Assembly: GCA_018263435.1 (NCBI GenBank)
Contig: JAANXD010000093.1
Coordinates: forward strand, 1-34,146
Length of the DNA: 34,146 nt
From: Candidatus Scalindua arabica
GTDB taxonomy: Bacteria > Planctomycetota > Brocadiia > Brocadiales > Scalinduaceae
Direction of reading: 5' to 3'
Positions 16,510 to 24,719 of the stretch are shown piece after piece; the first letter of the stretch is position 1; every line of letters begins with the position of its first letter. A model generated the notes under the pieces. That model had not been told where the DNA came from. It made no database searches and saw nothing but the letters and a program-made list of their open reading frames with translations. A program made the position numbers and the translations under genes.

Positions 16510-17475
16510 ATGCCAATAGTTGCTGGTATTGATGAAGCCGGTTACGGTCCCACATTAGGCCCATTAGTATTATCAAAGGTCGTGATGGGAATACCGGCTG
16601 AATATCATCATGAGACAAACATCTGGCATGTCCTTAAAGATGCTATTTCTGAGAAAACACAAAAACGGGGAAATCGCATAGTTGTTGGTGACAGCAAGAA
16701 GCTATATCAGCAGAAAACGGGATTAAAAATACTGGAGGAGGCAGTTCTATCCTTTATCTGGCATACAAAAGGCCCGGTAGCAAAATTTACAGATTTACTA
16801 AAACTATTGTCGGACTACGATGACAATGTTTTTAACAAATACCCATGGTATAAGGGAAGAGACCTTGATCTGCCGGTTGCATCAAATGTGTCCGCAATCA
16901 TGAATTATGCAGACAACTTTAAGCACACTGCAGTCCTGCAGGATGTGAGTATACTTGATATTAAGAGCCATTTTATTTGTGTGTCTGAGATAAACAGGCA
17001 AATAGAGCTTGATGGTAACAAATCTCTGCTCCTCTTCAAAAGCTGTATAAGGCATCTTAAAGAAGTATTTGAACATTATGGTAGACACAAACCAAAAGTC
17101 TTAATAGATAAACACGGAGGAAGAAACTATTACGAAAGACTGCTTGTACAGAATTTTGAAGGATGTAAGGTAGACTCAATTACAGAAGGAAATCCGTTGT
17201 CAACCTACAATATTAATAATGCGGACAGAAAGATGGATGTATCTTTTGTTGTAGGTGCAGACTCAAAACATTTCCCAACTGCACTTGCATCAATGTTCAG
17301 TAAATACATCCGTGAATTATTTATAAAATTATTCAACTCATTCTGGCAGGAGAAAGTACAGAACATTAAGCCGACTGCCGGTTATCCGGAAGATGCCAGG
17401 CGGTTTTTGTCTCAGATCCATGATATAAGAAGCAAGTTGAATATAAGTGATGATATTTTAATTAGAGTTAAATAA
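16510..17475 (+). CDS. RNase HII-like protein
   Basis: This 321-residue protein carries the RNase HII active-site signatures in order: AGIDEAGYGPTLGPL (D8, E9), GDSKKLY (D61), VLIDKHGG (D200) and GADSKHFPTALASMFSKYIREL (D251), the last matching the IAAASI.AK helix of bacterial RNase HII. The family removes ribonucleotides from DNA and RNA primers. It is longer than classical RNase HII (about 200 residues), mainly through an insertion between D61 and D200. The identity of the true replication-repair RNase HII therefore remains open. There is no ribosome-binding site of note before the ATG. The gene ends 20 bp before asd and is probably co-transcribed with it. Confidence 0.8.
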   Translation: MPIVAGIDEAGYGPTLGPLVLSKVVMGIPAEYHHETNIWHVLKDAISEKTQKRGNRIVVGDSKKLYQQKTGLKILEEAVLSFIWHTKGPVAKFTDLLKLLSDYDDNVFNKYPWYKGRDLDLPVASNVSAIMNYADNFKHTAVLQDVSILDIKSHFICVSEINRQIELDGNKSLLLFKSCIRHLKEVFEHYGRHKPKVLIDKHGGRNYYERLLVQNFEGCKVDSITEGNPLSTYNINNADRKMDVSFVVGADSKHFPTALASMFSKYIRELFIKLFNSFWQEKVQNIKPTAGYPEDARRFLSQIHDIRSKLNISDDILIRVK

Positions 17476-18599: not shown

Positions 18600-19034
18600 T
18601 TCTACTACGATCAACTAAAACTATTTCTGAACAGTATGTTGCCGACAGAAAATATCTTTTATGCATTCAAAATTGAAGGGACGTTTGAGTATATCAAGGC
18701 AAGGAGTGTTCCCGGGCAGAATAAACCGTATCCACCGCTTGTCGAAATAGTAAAGGACCAGCCAATATTTGAGTTTCATGACGTAAAAGGTACATTAGTG
18801 GGATTTTGGTATCCGAGTTACATGAAGGGGATAAATGTTCCCGGTTATCATTTTCACTTTATTACTGAAGATAAAAAGGCAGGAGGACATTTGCTTGAGT
18901 GTCAGACGCAAAATGTAAGGATCGGACTTGATTATACTTCCAACTCGTACCTGGCGTTGCCGGAAGATGAGGAATTCTATAAAGCAGAATTGTCTAAAGG
19001 AAATCGGGCGGTGTTAGAAAAGGTGGAAAAATAA
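18600..19034 (+). pseudogene. budA: 5'-truncated alpha-acetolactate decarboxylase (C-terminal half)
   Basis: The frame matches the C-terminal half of BudA, the zinc enzyme that converts acetolactate to acetoin. The sequence NIFYAFKIEGTFEYIKARSVPGQ, KPYPPLVEIVK and GINVPGYHFHFITEDKKAGGH is characteristic, with the zinc-binding histidines H72, H74 and H85 (counted from the ATG at 18636) all present. The full enzyme is about 235-260 residues; only 132 remain after that ATG. The family match continues upstream of the ATG in the same frame (DQLKLFLNS, from 18609) and ends at a stop at 18597, where the hairpin repeat begins. So the N-terminal half has been lost. No ribosome-binding site precedes the ATG. 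It is probably non-functional, though the metal-binding core is intact. Confidence 0.85.
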
Positions 19035-19572: not shown

Positions 19573-19601
19573 TTGACAGTAGTTCCTGCGGTTTCTATAT
19601 T
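19573..19601 (+). promoter_or_regulatory. Sigma-70-like promoter for the riboswitch leader
   Basis: TTGACA (19573-19578) and TATATT (19596-19601) are separated by exactly 17 bases. Transcription would start near 19608, about 50 bases upstream of the first cobalamin aptamer. Confidence 0.7.
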
Positions 19602-19658
19602 CAACACAACAAAACGACTGAAATACATTTAGTTATGTACTTTGAAAATTTAAATCCG

Positions 19659-19849
19659 TTTACGGGTGCTCGCATATTGCGACATAATAGGGAAGTCCCT
19701 TAAAGGGCACGGACCCGCCGCTGTAATCGGCTACTAAGACTGCATTTCACGATTTATTTCGTGATAACAGGCCACTTCGCCCGGCTTTGACCGGGGTGGG
19801 AAGGCGCAGTCATTAGGATGACCCGATAGTCAGAAGACCTACCCGTAAA
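19659..19849 (+). promoter_or_regulatory. Cobalamin riboswitch 1
   Basis: The aptamer closes with a perfect 9-bp stem (TTTACGGGT at 19659-19667 with ACCCGTAAA at 19841-19849). Conserved parts are visible in order: GGGAAGTCCC, CGGACCCGCCGCTGTAATCGG, GCCACTTCGCC / GGGAAGGCGC, AGGATGACCCGA, and the B12-box variant AGTCAGAAGACCTACC. It is followed by an intrinsic terminator at 19927-19962, so it is a transcription-terminating switch. No gene starts directly after the terminator. The next feature is a second cobalamin riboswitch. Confidence 0.9.
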
Positions 19850-19926
19850 TGCTTCACATTAACTCTTCGAAGGTAAAGAAGGTGAAGGAACGATACGTCT
19901 TTTATCACATAACATACTCAACATAA

Positions 19927-19962
19927 AACCCGGATCTTCCCATCGAAGATTCGGGTTTTTTT
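19927..19962 (+). terminator. Intrinsic terminator of riboswitch 1
   Basis: A 13-bp stem (AACCCGGATCTTC with GAAGATTCGGGTT, one G-T pair) with loop CCATC is followed by seven T. A CTTCAC/GTGAAG pair just upstream (from about 19852) could take part in the alternative structure. The spacing from the aptamer suits B12-dependent termination. Confidence 0.88.
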
Positions 19963-19979
19963 ATTGGTGTAATAAATCA

Positions 19980-20108
19980 GCCCATAAAACTCCCGTCCCC
20001 GCCAGAATGCGCGTCGGGCTGGCGAACGGCTTGGCCGGGCAGGCACATAAAGACACAAAAAAACTTTCGTGGTATTTCGTGGTTTTCGTGGGTAAAGGAG
20101 GTGATCAT
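19980..20108. repeat. Dispersed repeat and orphan ribosome-binding site
   Basis: GC-rich patches (GCCAGAATGCGCGTCGGG) precede CGTGGTATTTCGTGGTTTTC and then AAAGGAGGTGATC (20094-20106), which is complementary to the conserved 3' end of 16S rRNA over 13 bases. No start codon with a usable frame follows: TTG CAA TAA ends at once. It may be a remnant of a lost gene start. Confidence 0.45.
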
Positions 20109-20137
20109 TTGCAATAACGTTTTATAAAAACTTTTAC

Positions 20138-20336
20138 TGTGTGTCAGATACAAGGAAATCCCTGCCGAATTAGACCTCGGCCAAAAGGAGCTGCCCCGCA
20201 ACTGTAATCGGTGACGAAATCTGCAGAATACCACTGGAAAATGTAAGCCATTTAAACGGTTTAAACAGTTTAAACGGCTTTCCGGGAAGGTGCAGAGATT
20301 AGGATGATCCGAAAGCCAGGAGACCTGTCTTACACG
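20138..20336 (+). promoter_or_regulatory. Cobalamin riboswitch 2
   Basis: AGGAAATCCCTGCCG, GAGCTGCCCCGCAACTGTAATCGG, GGGAAGGTGC, AGGATGATCCGA and the B12 box AGCCAGGAGACCTGTC are present in the order of the class. The variable arm near 20235-20280 carries three TTTAAAC repeats. The closing stem (GTGT near 20140 with ACAC near 20332) is followed by a run of seven T. The start codon of the outer-membrane protein lies 43 bases after the aptamer with ribosome-binding site AAAGGAGG, so control could be at translation initiation. The T-run also allows short-range termination. Confidence 0.9.
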
Positions 20337-20378
20337 TTTTTTTCTAACACTTTTTTCCGAGGGGAAAAGGAGGTTTAC

Positions 20379-21653
20379 ATGAAGTATTTTTATTATCTAC
20401 CGCATTTGTTTATTATTTTACTTTCCTGTAATACGGTGTATGCGGCGGTAACCGATGAAGAATTTGAGACATTAAGCAGGCAAGTAAAAAGTATGGAGAA
20501 AACCATTAGCAGGCTGGAGAAATATCTCGATAAGGTTGAAAGTATTGAACCGGAGGTTGCGAGACCTTCTTCAGAAACAAAACCAGCACAAATTCAGGAT
20601 ATTTCTTCTGATGACAAAAAGGACATTGCTAAGGCTGAAGAGAGGTTTGAAAAAAAGTTTAGTACACTGGAAGATATGGTTTATGAACTGAAAGACAGGG
20701 CCTCCCTCATGGATGTAACTGATGAAATAAGACGTGTTCAGGAATATGTATGTCGAAAGGGGCATGTCTTTCCTGCACAGAGTGAAAATAAAAAATGCCC
20801 TAGTTGCGGCTTGAAGCAAAAGAAAAGATCCCGATTCAAACTATTTAAATTTGCCAGACGAGAGAGTATATCAGAAAGGATTTCAGCTGCAGTTGAAGAG
20901 GAACTTGAGAGACGTGTAATCATTGGAGCCAGCGGTACAGGAATTTTCCAACAATTAGTAAATAGTGATAGACAGGGAAGGAGTGTTGATAGTAGCGGAA
21001 AGAAGAGTTTTGTAGAAGGTTCTACTGATCTGCTGTTTATAGCTAAACCACTTCTTTATACTACTTTTTTCCTGGATCTCGAATCGATAGGAGGCAATGG
21101 ACCCGGTATGCTGGCATTTTTTGATACAAGAAGTGGATATACATTTGGGTTTGGTATGCAAAGCATTGACAATTCAGGTACCAATATCACTGATGGTATT
21201 TATGGTATTGCTGAGATCGGGTACAGGTCTCACCTCTTTTTTCAACAGGAAGGAAACTATCGCCTGTGGGGAAAGACAAAAGGTGGAACGGAAGATAACA
21301 ATGGTTTTGGCGTAAGCATAGATCAGAATCTTTCCACCCGGCTAACGGCATTTGGGCGTTATGGAGCTAATGAATCGGAGGATAATGATGCAAGTATTGA
21401 AAGCGCATGGAGCGCCGGTCTCCGGCTCAGATCTCTATTCTTTTCAAGGGTTAATGATGAAGTAGCCATTGCATTCGGCATGTTAGACATAGTTGATGGA
21501 GATGAAGAGAGCGCGGCAGAGGTTTATTATAAATTCCAGGTTAACGATCGCTTTGCCGTTACACCAAGCTTTCAAGCAGTATTTGATCCCGCTGGAAAGG
21601 GCTCTAATGATACTGCTGCTGTAATAGGTATTAGAACACAGGTAGAATTCTGA
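20379..21653 (+). CDS. Outer-membrane porin-like protein with coiled coil and Cys/His ribbon, B12-riboswitch controlled
   Basis: The real start is the ATG at 20379, preceded by AAAGGAGG; an in-frame ATG at 20304 lies inside the riboswitch and is rejected. The 424-residue protein has a signal peptide (to about residue 22, NTVYAA). Then come a heptad-rich coiled coil (about 25-115), a ribbon-like motif CRKGH ... CPSCG (C125, H129, C140, C143) and a basic stretch KKRSRFKLFKFARR. The C-terminal half (about 205-424) is rich in alternating aromatic and polar residues and ends in phenylalanine, as in outer-membrane beta-barrels of the OprB/carbohydrate-porin kind. Control by a cobalamin riboswitch suggests a role in uptake of corrinoids or a substitute for a B12-dependent route. 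It has no TonB-receptor plug. The metal bound by the Cys/His motif is unknown. Confidence 0.75.
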   Translation: MKYFYYLPHLFIILLSCNTVYAAVTDEEFETLSRQVKSMEKTISRLEKYLDKVESIEPEVARPSSETKPAQIQDISSDDKKDIAKAEERFEKKFSTLEDMVYELKDRASLMDVTDEIRRVQEYVCRKGHVFPAQSENKKCPSCGLKQKKRSRFKLFKFARRESISERISAAVEEELERRVIIGASGTGIFQQLVNSDRQGRSVDSSGKKSFVEGSTDLLFIAKPLLYTTFFLDLESIGGNGPGMLAFFDTRSGYTFGFGMQSIDNSGTNITDGIYGIAEIGYRSHLFFQQEGNYRLWGKTKGGTEDNNGFGVSIDQNLSTRLTAFGRYGANESEDNDASIESAWSAGLRLRSLFFSRVNDEVAIAFGMLDIVDGDEESAAEVYYKFQVNDRFAVTPSFQAVFDPAGKGSNDTAAVIGIRTQVEF

Positions 21654-21771
21654 GTTTCTAATATGATACCTGTGGACGCTTGAACTTAATTCACGAAGAC
21701 AAAGGCTTAAATAAATCTATTTCAGAAGATATGGCTAACTACTCGAAAGTCATTGTTTGAAAGGAGGCAGA

Positions 21772-21800
21772 TTGACAAGGTTCGGTATACTTATTCTATT
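21772..21800 (+). promoter_or_regulatory. Candidate promoter for the YVTN propeller gene
   Basis: TTGACA (21772-21777) and TCTATT (21795-21800, four of six consensus bases) are 17 bases apart. They would start a transcript about 45 bases before the ATG at 21851, so the propeller gene may not depend on the riboswitch. Confidence 0.45.
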
Positions 21801-21850
21801 GTGAATTTCGAAAATATTTGAAACCTTTATTTAATAGGAGGAAAAGTGCG

Positions 21851-23047
21851 ATGTTAAAAAGTTTGAAGATGTTTAATATGGGTATCTTTGTTTGTTGCAT
21901 GATCACAATATCCTGGATTTTTGCATTGGTTAGTCAGGCAGAACAGGTAAGTTTTGATCCTAAATCCGTAGTGTTTGTTACCAATCGTGATTCCAGTGAT
22001 GTTACCGTAATAGATATGAATACGGATGTGATATTAGACCGCATTGCGTGCGGTGACTGGTCAAATCCACATATGGCCGTTGTGACTCTGGACGGGAAAA
22101 ATTTACTGGTAACAGGTACAAACTCCAATTTTGTCGCAATCATTGATTTAGAAACCAGAGAACTTTCAAAAGTCAGGCTGGGATTGATGCCCGAGCATTT
22201 TGATATTACACCTGACGGTAAATATGCATATATTGGAAATATGGCTGCAGGATGTGTGTCTGTAGTTGATATCGAAGCCAAAGAAGAGATAAGCAGGCTC
22301 ACCGGTTTCTTTGAACCACACGGCATTGTATGTCTGCCTGGCAGCTCTAAGGTTTATGTCTCTAATATGGGAGCACATGAAGTCGCAGTTATAGATGTTG
22401 AAAAACAGCTGGTTGCATCAAGGATGGAAGTAGGGAGTGCGTATGTAATGGCCAGGGTAGACATGGATAGCAAGATGGCTGAAGTCGTAGGAATCGCAAA
22501 TCCTACATTGACAACCGACGGCCGTTACGCCTATGCCGCAGACGGTGATTCAGATCAGGTTGCCGTTATAGATACTTTAGATGACAGCATAATCACAACA
22601 ATTCCTGTAGGAGATGATCCCTGGCGTGCCTATGCATCACCGGATGGATTGAAGATGCTTGTACCAAACAATGGAGACGAAACTATCTCCGTGATCGACA
22701 CAACCACCAATGAGGTGATAGCTACCTTTCCCGGTGGCGCGGATATGACGGGAGTCAATTTTGTAAACGGAGGGGAAAAAGCTTACGTCATAAGCAGAGG
22801 AGATAATGCAGTATATATATTTGACATGGAAGAGATGAGAGAAATAAAGAAGGTTAAACTCGGCTTGAATGTGAGCCCTGAGACTGCATCAACGACACTA
22901 GATGGTAAAAAGGTATATCTTGCGGCATCTCGCAGGAATTCAGTCTTCGTCTTTGATGCAGATACTGACGACTATAAGGAGATATCTAACGTCGGTCTTT
23001 CACCATGGGCAGTAACAATTATTGGTGCAAACAATTATTGTCATTGA
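21851..23047 (+). CDS. Secreted YVTN-family beta-propeller
   Basis: The start at 21851 is fixed by AATAGGAGG upstream; a longer in-frame start at 21818 has none. The 398-residue protein has a signal peptide (MLKSLKMFNMGIFVCCM...SQAEQ). It then has repeats of the YVTN type: VFVTNRDSSDVTVIDMNTDVILDRI, KVYVSNMGAHEVAVIDVE, KMLVPNNGDETISVIDTTTNEVIATF and others, each about 40-45 residues, giving a seven-bladed propeller. Such proteins act as periplasmic binding or scaffold proteins. No haem or quinone motif is visible. The gene lies between the riboswitch-controlled barrel protein and the NosL-like protease and may form a functional group with them. Confidence 0.85.
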   Translation: MLKSLKMFNMGIFVCCMITISWIFALVSQAEQVSFDPKSVVFVTNRDSSDVTVIDMNTDVILDRIACGDWSNPHMAVVTLDGKNLLVTGTNSNFVAIIDLETRELSKVRLGLMPEHFDITPDGKYAYIGNMAAGCVSVVDIEAKEEISRLTGFFEPHGIVCLPGSSKVYVSNMGAHEVAVIDVEKQLVASRMEVGSAYVMARVDMDSKMAEVVGIANPTLTTDGRYAYAADGDSDQVAVIDTLDDSIITTIPVGDDPWRAYASPDGLKMLVPNNGDETISVIDTTTNEVIATFPGGADMTGVNFVNGGEKAYVISRGDNAVYIFDMEEMREIKKVKLGLNVSPETASTTLDGKKVYLAASRRNSVFVFDADTDDYKEISNVGLSPWAVTIIGANNYCH

Positions 23048-23132
23048 TGTGATTATTTGGACGCAGATTTTCGCAGAATTATTATCTTTAAAATCATGAT
23101 AATATGCGTTCATCTGCGTCCTAAATTTAATA
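23048..23132. repeat. ATCTGCGTCC inverted repeat
   Basis: GGACGCAGAT (23059-23068) and ATCTGCGTCC (23112-23121) are perfect reverse complements with about 43 bases between. The words ATCTGCG and TTCGCAGA occur in other intergenic regions (near 7470 and 9925), so this is a dispersed repeat family. It lies between the YVTN propeller and the next gene and could form a hairpin in the joint transcript. Confidence 0.55.
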
Positions 23133-24719
23133 ATGATCTACAAGATAAAAGGCCTTAAGCTATTACTATTGTTTTTCCTCAATATCCTTGTGCTGAGTTC
23201 GGCTTATTCACACGAACCAGACGGGAATGCTCCCATACGCCCAGCAGTGACAAATCATCTTAAAGAGACGGAAGAATACAGGACCACTCTTTCATATTAT
23301 CCTGTTGGTGATACCGGAATCTTCGATTTCACAGTTCGAGTTGAAAAAATCAGTTCAGGATCTTATTACAATCAAGAACTTGAGTTTAAGATCGTTGACC
23401 CTCAAGGCATAGAAAGAATTTCTTACATACCCTTTTTAGATAATGAATACAATTATAGAATGAGACAGGTTTTGAAGGACAAGGGACAGTATGTCTTTAT
23501 AGTACAGTTTATCCGGGAAGGAAGAGACCATGAAATAACATTTCCGTTCAAAGTAGAAGAATATAATATTGAAAACATGTGTGCATGGTGTCGCATGTTA
23601 GTAACAAATATAAAAACTGCATATTTTTTAACCCTGAACGGTGACGATAAAAAATCTTGTTGTATTCATTGTGCCTTAAATTATATAAATAAATTTAATG
23701 ATAAATTTATATCAATGAAATCTGTGGATTATTACAGCGAAGAGAAAATTGACAGCCAAAAGGCCTGGTATATTAATGGCCCTGATATCATTCTTAAGGA
23801 TTCAATGCCACCCTATGTAGTTGCTTTCAGTACAATAGAGTCCGCAAGGGATTTCCAGAAGACATACGATGGAAAGATTGTTGACTTTAACAGATTGAAA
23901 TACGAGGTTTTAAGAAAAGAAGATCCCGAATTCTCACCGAAAGAGGATGAAGATATACTCCTTTTGGAAGAACTTATTCTCAGGATAAAAGAAAACTACT
24001 ACAAAGATATTGACGTTAAAGAGTTGATCGAATTATCCATCAAAAACATAACAACTTCCCTGGACCAATATAGTTCGCTCAAAGAAATTAAACCTTCTTC
24101 TCTCGATTTCATAAGGGGCTTTGAAAGAGATGAAACAATATCCGACACAAGAATTATTAATGATAATATAGGGTACATCAAGATTAAGCATTTTGGAAGG
24201 AGGACAAAGGAAGGTTTTAAAAAGGCTTTGACAGATATAATAGATATAGACCTCCGCGGATTGATAATTGATCTGAGGGATAATCCGGGAGGAAGCCTGG
24301 AAGAGACTATTCAAGTAATGGAATTCTTTATTCCGGAAGGACGTCTTTTAGCAACTGTTAATAGTAAAGGGAAGACAAAATATTTCTCCAATAATAACGA
24401 AGAGTTTGGGTATCCTTTGGTGATATTGATTAATAATAATACAGCGAGCAGTGCTGAGATATTTGCCTCAACCTTACGTTACCATAATAAGGCAACGCTT
24501 GTGGGTACAAATAGTTATGGTAAGGGAACAATACAAAAGGCATTTCCATTAAACTACAATCATACCTTAATTCTTACTATTGGTGAATTCGACCTTGCTG
24601 ATGGCGCTACGCTGCAGAATTCAGGAATTAAGCCAGATTATGTTATTGAAGGTGATGAGGAGCAAATAACATTTGCAATAGAACTCATTGAGAAATGGAA
24701 AGGAAATTCAAATCAATAA
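23133..24719 (+). CDS. Secreted NosL-like domain fused to an S41 (C-terminal processing) protease
   Basis: This 528-residue protein has a signal peptide (to about residue 26, SSAYSHEP). An all-beta domain follows (about 45-145). Then comes a NosL-like domain with C150-A-W-C153-R-M155, a second set C176 C177 I H179 C180, and FSTIESARDFQKTYDGKIVDFNRL. NosL proteins carry copper for the nitrous oxide reductase cluster. The C-terminal third (about 275-528) is an S41 serine protease: S439 in TASSAEIF, K464 in SYGKGTIQ and Q468. The spacings (25 and 4 residues) are the same as in the Ser-Lys-Gln triad of CtpB. The PDZ domain that should lie before the catalytic core is missing: only about 45 residues separate LDQYSSLKE from GYIKIKHFG. 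A NosL/S41 combination is new to me. No nitrous oxide reductase gene is near. Confidence 0.8.
   Translation: MIYKIKGLKLLLLFFLNILVLSSAYSHEPDGNAPIRPAVTNHLKETEEYRTTLSYYPVGDTGIFDFTVRVEKISSGSYYNQELEFKIVDPQGIERISYIPFLDNEYNYRMRQVLKDKGQYVFIVQFIREGRDHEITFPFKVEEYNIENMCAWCRMLVTNIKTAYFLTLNGDDKKSCCIHCALNYINKFNDKFISMKSVDYYSEEKIDSQKAWYINGPDIILKDSMPPYVVAFSTIESARDFQKTYDGKIVDFNRLKYEVLRKEDPEFSPKEDEDILLLEELILRIKENYYKDIDVKELIELSIKNITTSLDQYSSLKEIKPSSLDFIRGFERDETISDTRIINDNIGYIKIKHFGRRTKEGFKKALTDIIDIDLRGLIIDLRDNPGGSLEETIQVMEFFIPEGRLLATVNSKGKTKYFSNNNEEFGYPLVILINNNTASSAEIFASTLRYHNKATLVGTNSYGKGTIQKAFPLNYNHTLILTIGEFDLADGATLQNSGIKPDYVIEGDEEQITFAIELIEKWKGNSNQ

Follow-up and report, generated by a model that had tools for sequence, protein, structure and literature searches.

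Two cobalamin aptamers lie in tandem upstream of an outer-membrane porin gene of Candidatus Scalindua arabica. The locus raises the question whether B12 acts twice on the same gene, first on transcription and then on translation, or whether one of the aptamers is a remnant or a separate unit. The window, which is the whole analysed stretch of 34,146 nucleotides, was examined together with related genomes. One promoter and one leader with two independent cobalamin OFF switches of anciently diverged types, the first terminating transcription and the second blocking translation, is very probably the correct reading of this architecture.

Anatomy of the leader

The features of the leader and of the genes under it are presented in Table 1. 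The order of promoter, aptamer 1, terminator, aptamer 2 and porin ribosome-binding site, as given in the preliminary description, was reproduced with its coordinates, and the leader length of about 770 nt was also confirmed when counted from a start near 19608.

Table 1. Positions of the leader elements and downstream genes in the window.
Feature	Position	Strand	Details
Promoter TTGACA-17-TATATT	19573..19601	+	11/12 consensus matches; conserved in Scalindua leaders
Cobalamin aptamer 1, transcription type, L5 GACCC	19647..19860	+	RF00174, 72.7 bits
P13/L13 of aptamer 1	19852..19887	+	CUUCAC..CUUC / GAAG..GUGAAG; L13 GGU can pair with L5 ACC
Intrinsic terminator 1	19925..19966	+	stem 19925-19959, U-tract to ~19966
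Dispersed-repeat material in spacer	19985..20095	+	largely absent from relatives
Extended Shine-Dalgarno (SD) AAGGAGGTGATC and mini-ORF TTG CAA TAA	20095..20117	+	SD 20095-20106, codons 20109-20117
Cobalamin aptamer 2, translation type, L5 GCCCC	20120..20346	+	RF00174, 73.7 bits
P13/L13 of aptamer 2	20354..20373	+	UUUCC 20354-20358 with GGAGG 20369-20373; L13 GGGG 20361-20364
OprB-family outer-membrane porin gene, 424 aa	20379..21653	+	ATG 20379, GGAGG 20369-20373
Second gene, YVTN/YncE-like beta-propeller protein	21818..23047	+	
Third gene, NosL domain and S41 peptidase domain	23133..24719	+	

Both aptamers gave full-length matches to RF00174 (E ~1e-16), far above the gathering score of the covariance model, 31.5 bits, and they were the only matches in the whole 2.69-Mb genome. 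The gap between them is 259 nt. Terminator 1 has a 15-pair stem of -21 kcal/mol (z -6.7). The end of aptamer 2 adjoins the ribosome-binding site of the porin gene; the hairpin at this site was weak when assessed by folding alone (z -0.3). No gene was found on the sense strand of the spacer, where all ORFs were at most 36 aa, in agreement with the earlier claim of an empty spacer, and the -35/-10 scan detected no promoter-like site from terminator 1 to aptamer 2.

The spacer contains an inserted repeat (TTTCGTGG-type and GC-rich parts) of which eight other partial copies are present in the genome. The whole spacer was lost in G002, G008 and G010. A function of the spacer as a whole was rejected, as it is mostly dispersed repeat here and is deleted in these three genomes. 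Two further ORFs of the window matched only parts of Pfam profiles. The alpha-acetolactate decarboxylase ORF at 18636-19034 corresponds to the C-terminal half of its profile (100-218 of 219), and the sole Pfam match of the 321-aa ORF at 16510-17475 covers 22 residues of ribonuclease HII.

The porin, the propeller and the NosL-plus-S41-peptidase genes follow in a row at 20379-24719. The nearest named relatives were MAGs of Planctomycetota and Candidatus Scalindua, whose porins are 85% and 82% identical, respectively. Among the 45 first downstream proteins scanned under such leaders, 27 had a TonB-receptor plug domain and 15 belonged to the OprB porin family, and 13 of the second downstream genes matched YncE-like propellers. 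In several families the porin and propeller genes occur together again under such a leader; the operon is a candidate non-TonB uptake system for corrinoids or cobalt.

The tandem pair in related genomes

A search for RF00174 covered 59 related genomes, and the close same-strand pairs were tallied. After one of 47 pairs had been dropped as a weak overlapping double match (G019, L062), 46 genuine pairs remained, distributed over 41 of the 59 genomes and four families. A gene between the paired aptamers was found in none of the 46. An intrinsic terminator follows aptamer 1 in every pair, with some U-tracts overlapping aptamer 2, and an almost invariant platform, UUUCCGAGGGGAAAGGAGG with a start codon after it, lies 3' of aptamer 2 in 41 pairs (40 by scan and G009 read by eye). 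As to the other five second aptamers, four carry another platform of the terminator type, and the platform of one is similar to the first type. The order of terminator and then RBS was detected also in the class-level outgroup genomes G064, G066 and G071. The comparison of the locus among relatives, suggested in the preliminary description as a check, thus supported the terminator-first and RBS-second order. Among 159 genomes sampled from the phylum, most of them outside the class, a single close pair outside the class (G145) was present among the matches listed, which gives a rough contrast. Far from being a curiosity, the predicted switch with its two stages has been passed down throughout a bacterial class. 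At two loci the second switch is naturally knocked out: an insertion interrupts aptamer 2 in L087 (G007), and L124 (G058) has lost the greater part of it.

In a maximum-likelihood tree of 89 aptamers, the second aptamers formed a clade separate from the first ones (support 100/99), and the first aptamers fell into two groups, type A, which is promoter-proximal (96/96), and type B of Brocadiaceae (84/92). The separation into supported clades indicates that the pair is an old, co-inherited unit and not the product of repeated recent duplication. The L5 and L13 loops also differed by type, GACCC occurring with GGU in 57 cases, GUACC with GUA in 20 of 22, and GCCCC with GGGG or GGGA in 49 of 51. 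The L5-L13 kissing loop is a known feature of cobalamin riboswitches (PMC9600662), and the concerted change of both loops between types supports it here; the loop complementarity is present in both window aptamers (GACCC/GGU and GCCCC/GGGG).

These data bear on the alternative, raised earlier, of an orphan aptamer 1 left behind by a deleted gene; such an aptamer would have lost control of the porin. The SD and start codon after terminator 1 (20095-20117) could be the stump of such a gene, and single type A aptamers with a terminator, an SD and a gene do exist. However, the pair was kept in four families and in the class outgroups with the intervening gene never found, the promoter and terminator of aptamer 1 are still conserved, and no promoter for the porin was found other than the one before aptamer 1. 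An orphan is very improbable on these counts and is rejected.

Alternatively, aptamer 2 may be transcribed from its own promoter, aptamer 1 being a short stand-alone RNA. The separate promoter directly before aptamer 2, which the preliminary description named as a refuting result, was looked for and was absent: within 130 nt 5' of the aptamer, TTGACA/T preceded 30 of 31 promoter-type first aptamers and 36 of 37 single aptamers, whereas it was found before 0 of 40 translation-type second aptamers. Promoters of other types would be invisible to the -35/-10 scan, but terminator 1 runs straight into aptamer 2 in seven pairs, including the close relatives G002 and G008, which leaves no space for a second promoter. 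Two transcription units are accordingly very unlikely. Both the orphan and the two-transcript readings fail on the lack of an intervening gene and of a second promoter and on the abutting terminators of the relatives. The sequence scan located a promoter before unit 1 only, and a single transcript is predicted.

Mini-ORFs at the junctions

Tiny ORFs of one to five codons often sit between the parts of the leaders. In the window, AAGGAGGTGATC (20095-20106) is a near-perfect complement of the usual tail of 16S rRNA, and TTG-NNN-TAA occurs at the same spacing in five Scalinduaceae leaders, those of the window and four others. In Brocadiaceae, an SD with an immediate start-stop (ATG TAA, ATG TAG or GTG TAG) was found 12-26 nt before the aptamer in 18 of 22 type B units. 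In tandem type B units the motif was observed in 13 of 15, compared with a shuffle mean of 0.16, and the background elsewhere on the same strand was 0.015 per 125 nt. It was detected before neither promoter-type first aptamers (0/31) nor single aptamers (0/37). G059 (ATG TAG) and G061 (ATG TGA), neither of which was used in finding the pattern, also carry the start-stop. The use of all three stop and two start codons suggests that the start-stop pair, and not its letters, is under selection.

The SD and start-stop were found just 5' of aptamers other than the first of a transcript, e.g. L064, L070, L080, L148 and L150, and many type B units with a start-stop come after a gene within an operon. 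The start-stop is missing at some junctions, and family f2 keeps GGAGG without a usual start codon.

A second ORF of the type B units (L064-L086) lies 3' of the aptamer, begins about 7 nt after GGAGG and has 3-5 codons in all. Its SD, GGAGG, is inside the 3' arm of P13, and its stop lies 1-4 nt 5' of the CCC in the terminator stem. This terminator-abutting ORF was present in 18 of 22 type B units (in G026 with the second GTG taken as the start) and in three other genomes; a corresponding short ORF was looked for in the aptamer 1 platform of the window and was absent. When a stop codon was shifted so as to lie 5 bp ahead of an intrinsic terminator, termination decreased from about 90% to under 10% (PMC4824070). 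On this basis, B12 might control termination through its control of a ribosome. In the type B leaders of Brocadiaceae, B12 would hide the SD of the five-codon ORF in P13; without B12, the ribosome would read this ORF and halt 1-4 nt before the terminator, so that termination would fail. At the other junctions, including that of the window, the start-stop may park a ribosome just 5' of the next aptamer, blocking Rho or upstream ribosomes. That ribosomes are built-in parts of the B12 leaders, as a gated antiterminator in type B and as a start-stop road-block elsewhere, is a tentative proposal, to which we give slightly less than even credence.

The nearest precedent is M. tuberculosis, where small ORFs, which are translated uORFs in that organism, likewise interact with the B12 riboswitches of metE and ppe2 (PMC11260477). 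For metE no intrinsic terminator was found, and ppe2 uses termination-reinitiation (PMC11260477). In contrast to metE and ppe2, the ORFs described here are start-stops or of 3-5 codons, are placed at the junctions and, in the case of Brocadiaceae, stop immediately 5' of an intrinsic terminator. No description of bacterial start-stop ORFs before riboswitches was found in the open-access literature.

Proposed two-stage switch and its relation to known systems

The anatomy of the leader, the order of its parts, the single promoter and the conservation can be read from the sequences, whereas we infer ligand binding, termination and translation control. With cobalamin bound, aptamer 1 would dock its L13 loop and terminator 1 would end transcription. 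In the transcripts that read through, the L5-L13 kissing loop of aptamer 2 would favour the P13 hairpin UUUCC/GGAGG; the hairpin would cover the Shine-Dalgarno of the porin and translation would be blocked. The net effect would be that an outer-membrane gene, probably for uptake, is shut when B12 is plentiful. For two equal and independent OFF switches, the calculated 90-to-10% ligand range narrows from 81-fold to about 40-fold and the repression factors multiply, thus the main benefit to be expected is a tighter shut-off.

A classical antiterminator was also looked for. The 5' arm of P13 is complementary to the 3' arm of the terminator in many leaders, and the pairing is weak: in the window the candidate resulted in about -8.6 kcal/mol versus -21 for the terminator. 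The pairing was also barely specific, with values of -8.3 for the own and -7.4 for the cross-family arms.

The two aptamers may prefer different corrinoids, in which case the leader would be a two-input NOR gate and not one signal read twice. The two types differ in L5/L13 and fall into separate clades, and corrinoid or isoform preference can vary among cobalamin riboswitches (PMC9600662; PMC11260477). Both aptamers, however, match the one RF00174 model well above threshold, and we consider the NOR gate rather unlikely.

A review lists 26 tandem AdoCbl riboswitch doublets, only as pseudo-cooperative (PMC9481103). Similarly to the pair described here, each has a single leader with two complete cobalamin riboswitches, no ORF between and a gap below 300 nt. 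The doublets are listed without a split between transcription and translation, whereas here the split is conserved in 41 of 46 pairs and four families. Bi-mechanism architecture is listed in the same source for SAM riboswitches only, namely SAM-II/SAM-V and some SAM-II/SAM-II tandems (PMC9481103). As in those tandems, which use the same ligand for a first unit with a terminator and a second unit at the RBS, the window contains two complete riboswitches of the same class without an ORF between them and a terminator in the first unit. The conserved UUUCCGAGGGGAAAGGAGG and start codon would fit a second unit that acts on the RBS. The SAM tandems belong to another ligand class, whereas both units are here of one Rfam family. 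Aptamer 2 resembles the translational riboswitch of the E. coli btuB type, as represented in PMC9600662 (citing Lussier 2015), in having L13 in the RBS hairpin and an outer-membrane target. It differs from that account in that a transcriptional unit precedes it and that, in the window, a porin takes the place of BtuB as the target. No paper describing tandem cobalamin bi-mechanism leaders was found in the open-access literature.

In a class that includes anammox lineages, many outer-membrane genes regulated by B12 would have the same-class tandem of transcription and then translation control as their inherited default. The intact pairs, the spacer-less pairs and the pairs with one aptamer broken or lost provide a natural series for studying why two switches are kept. 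The mini-ORFs are the part most worth testing, as they make it testable whether ribosomes inside riboswitch leaders may act as gated antiterminators or road-blocks.
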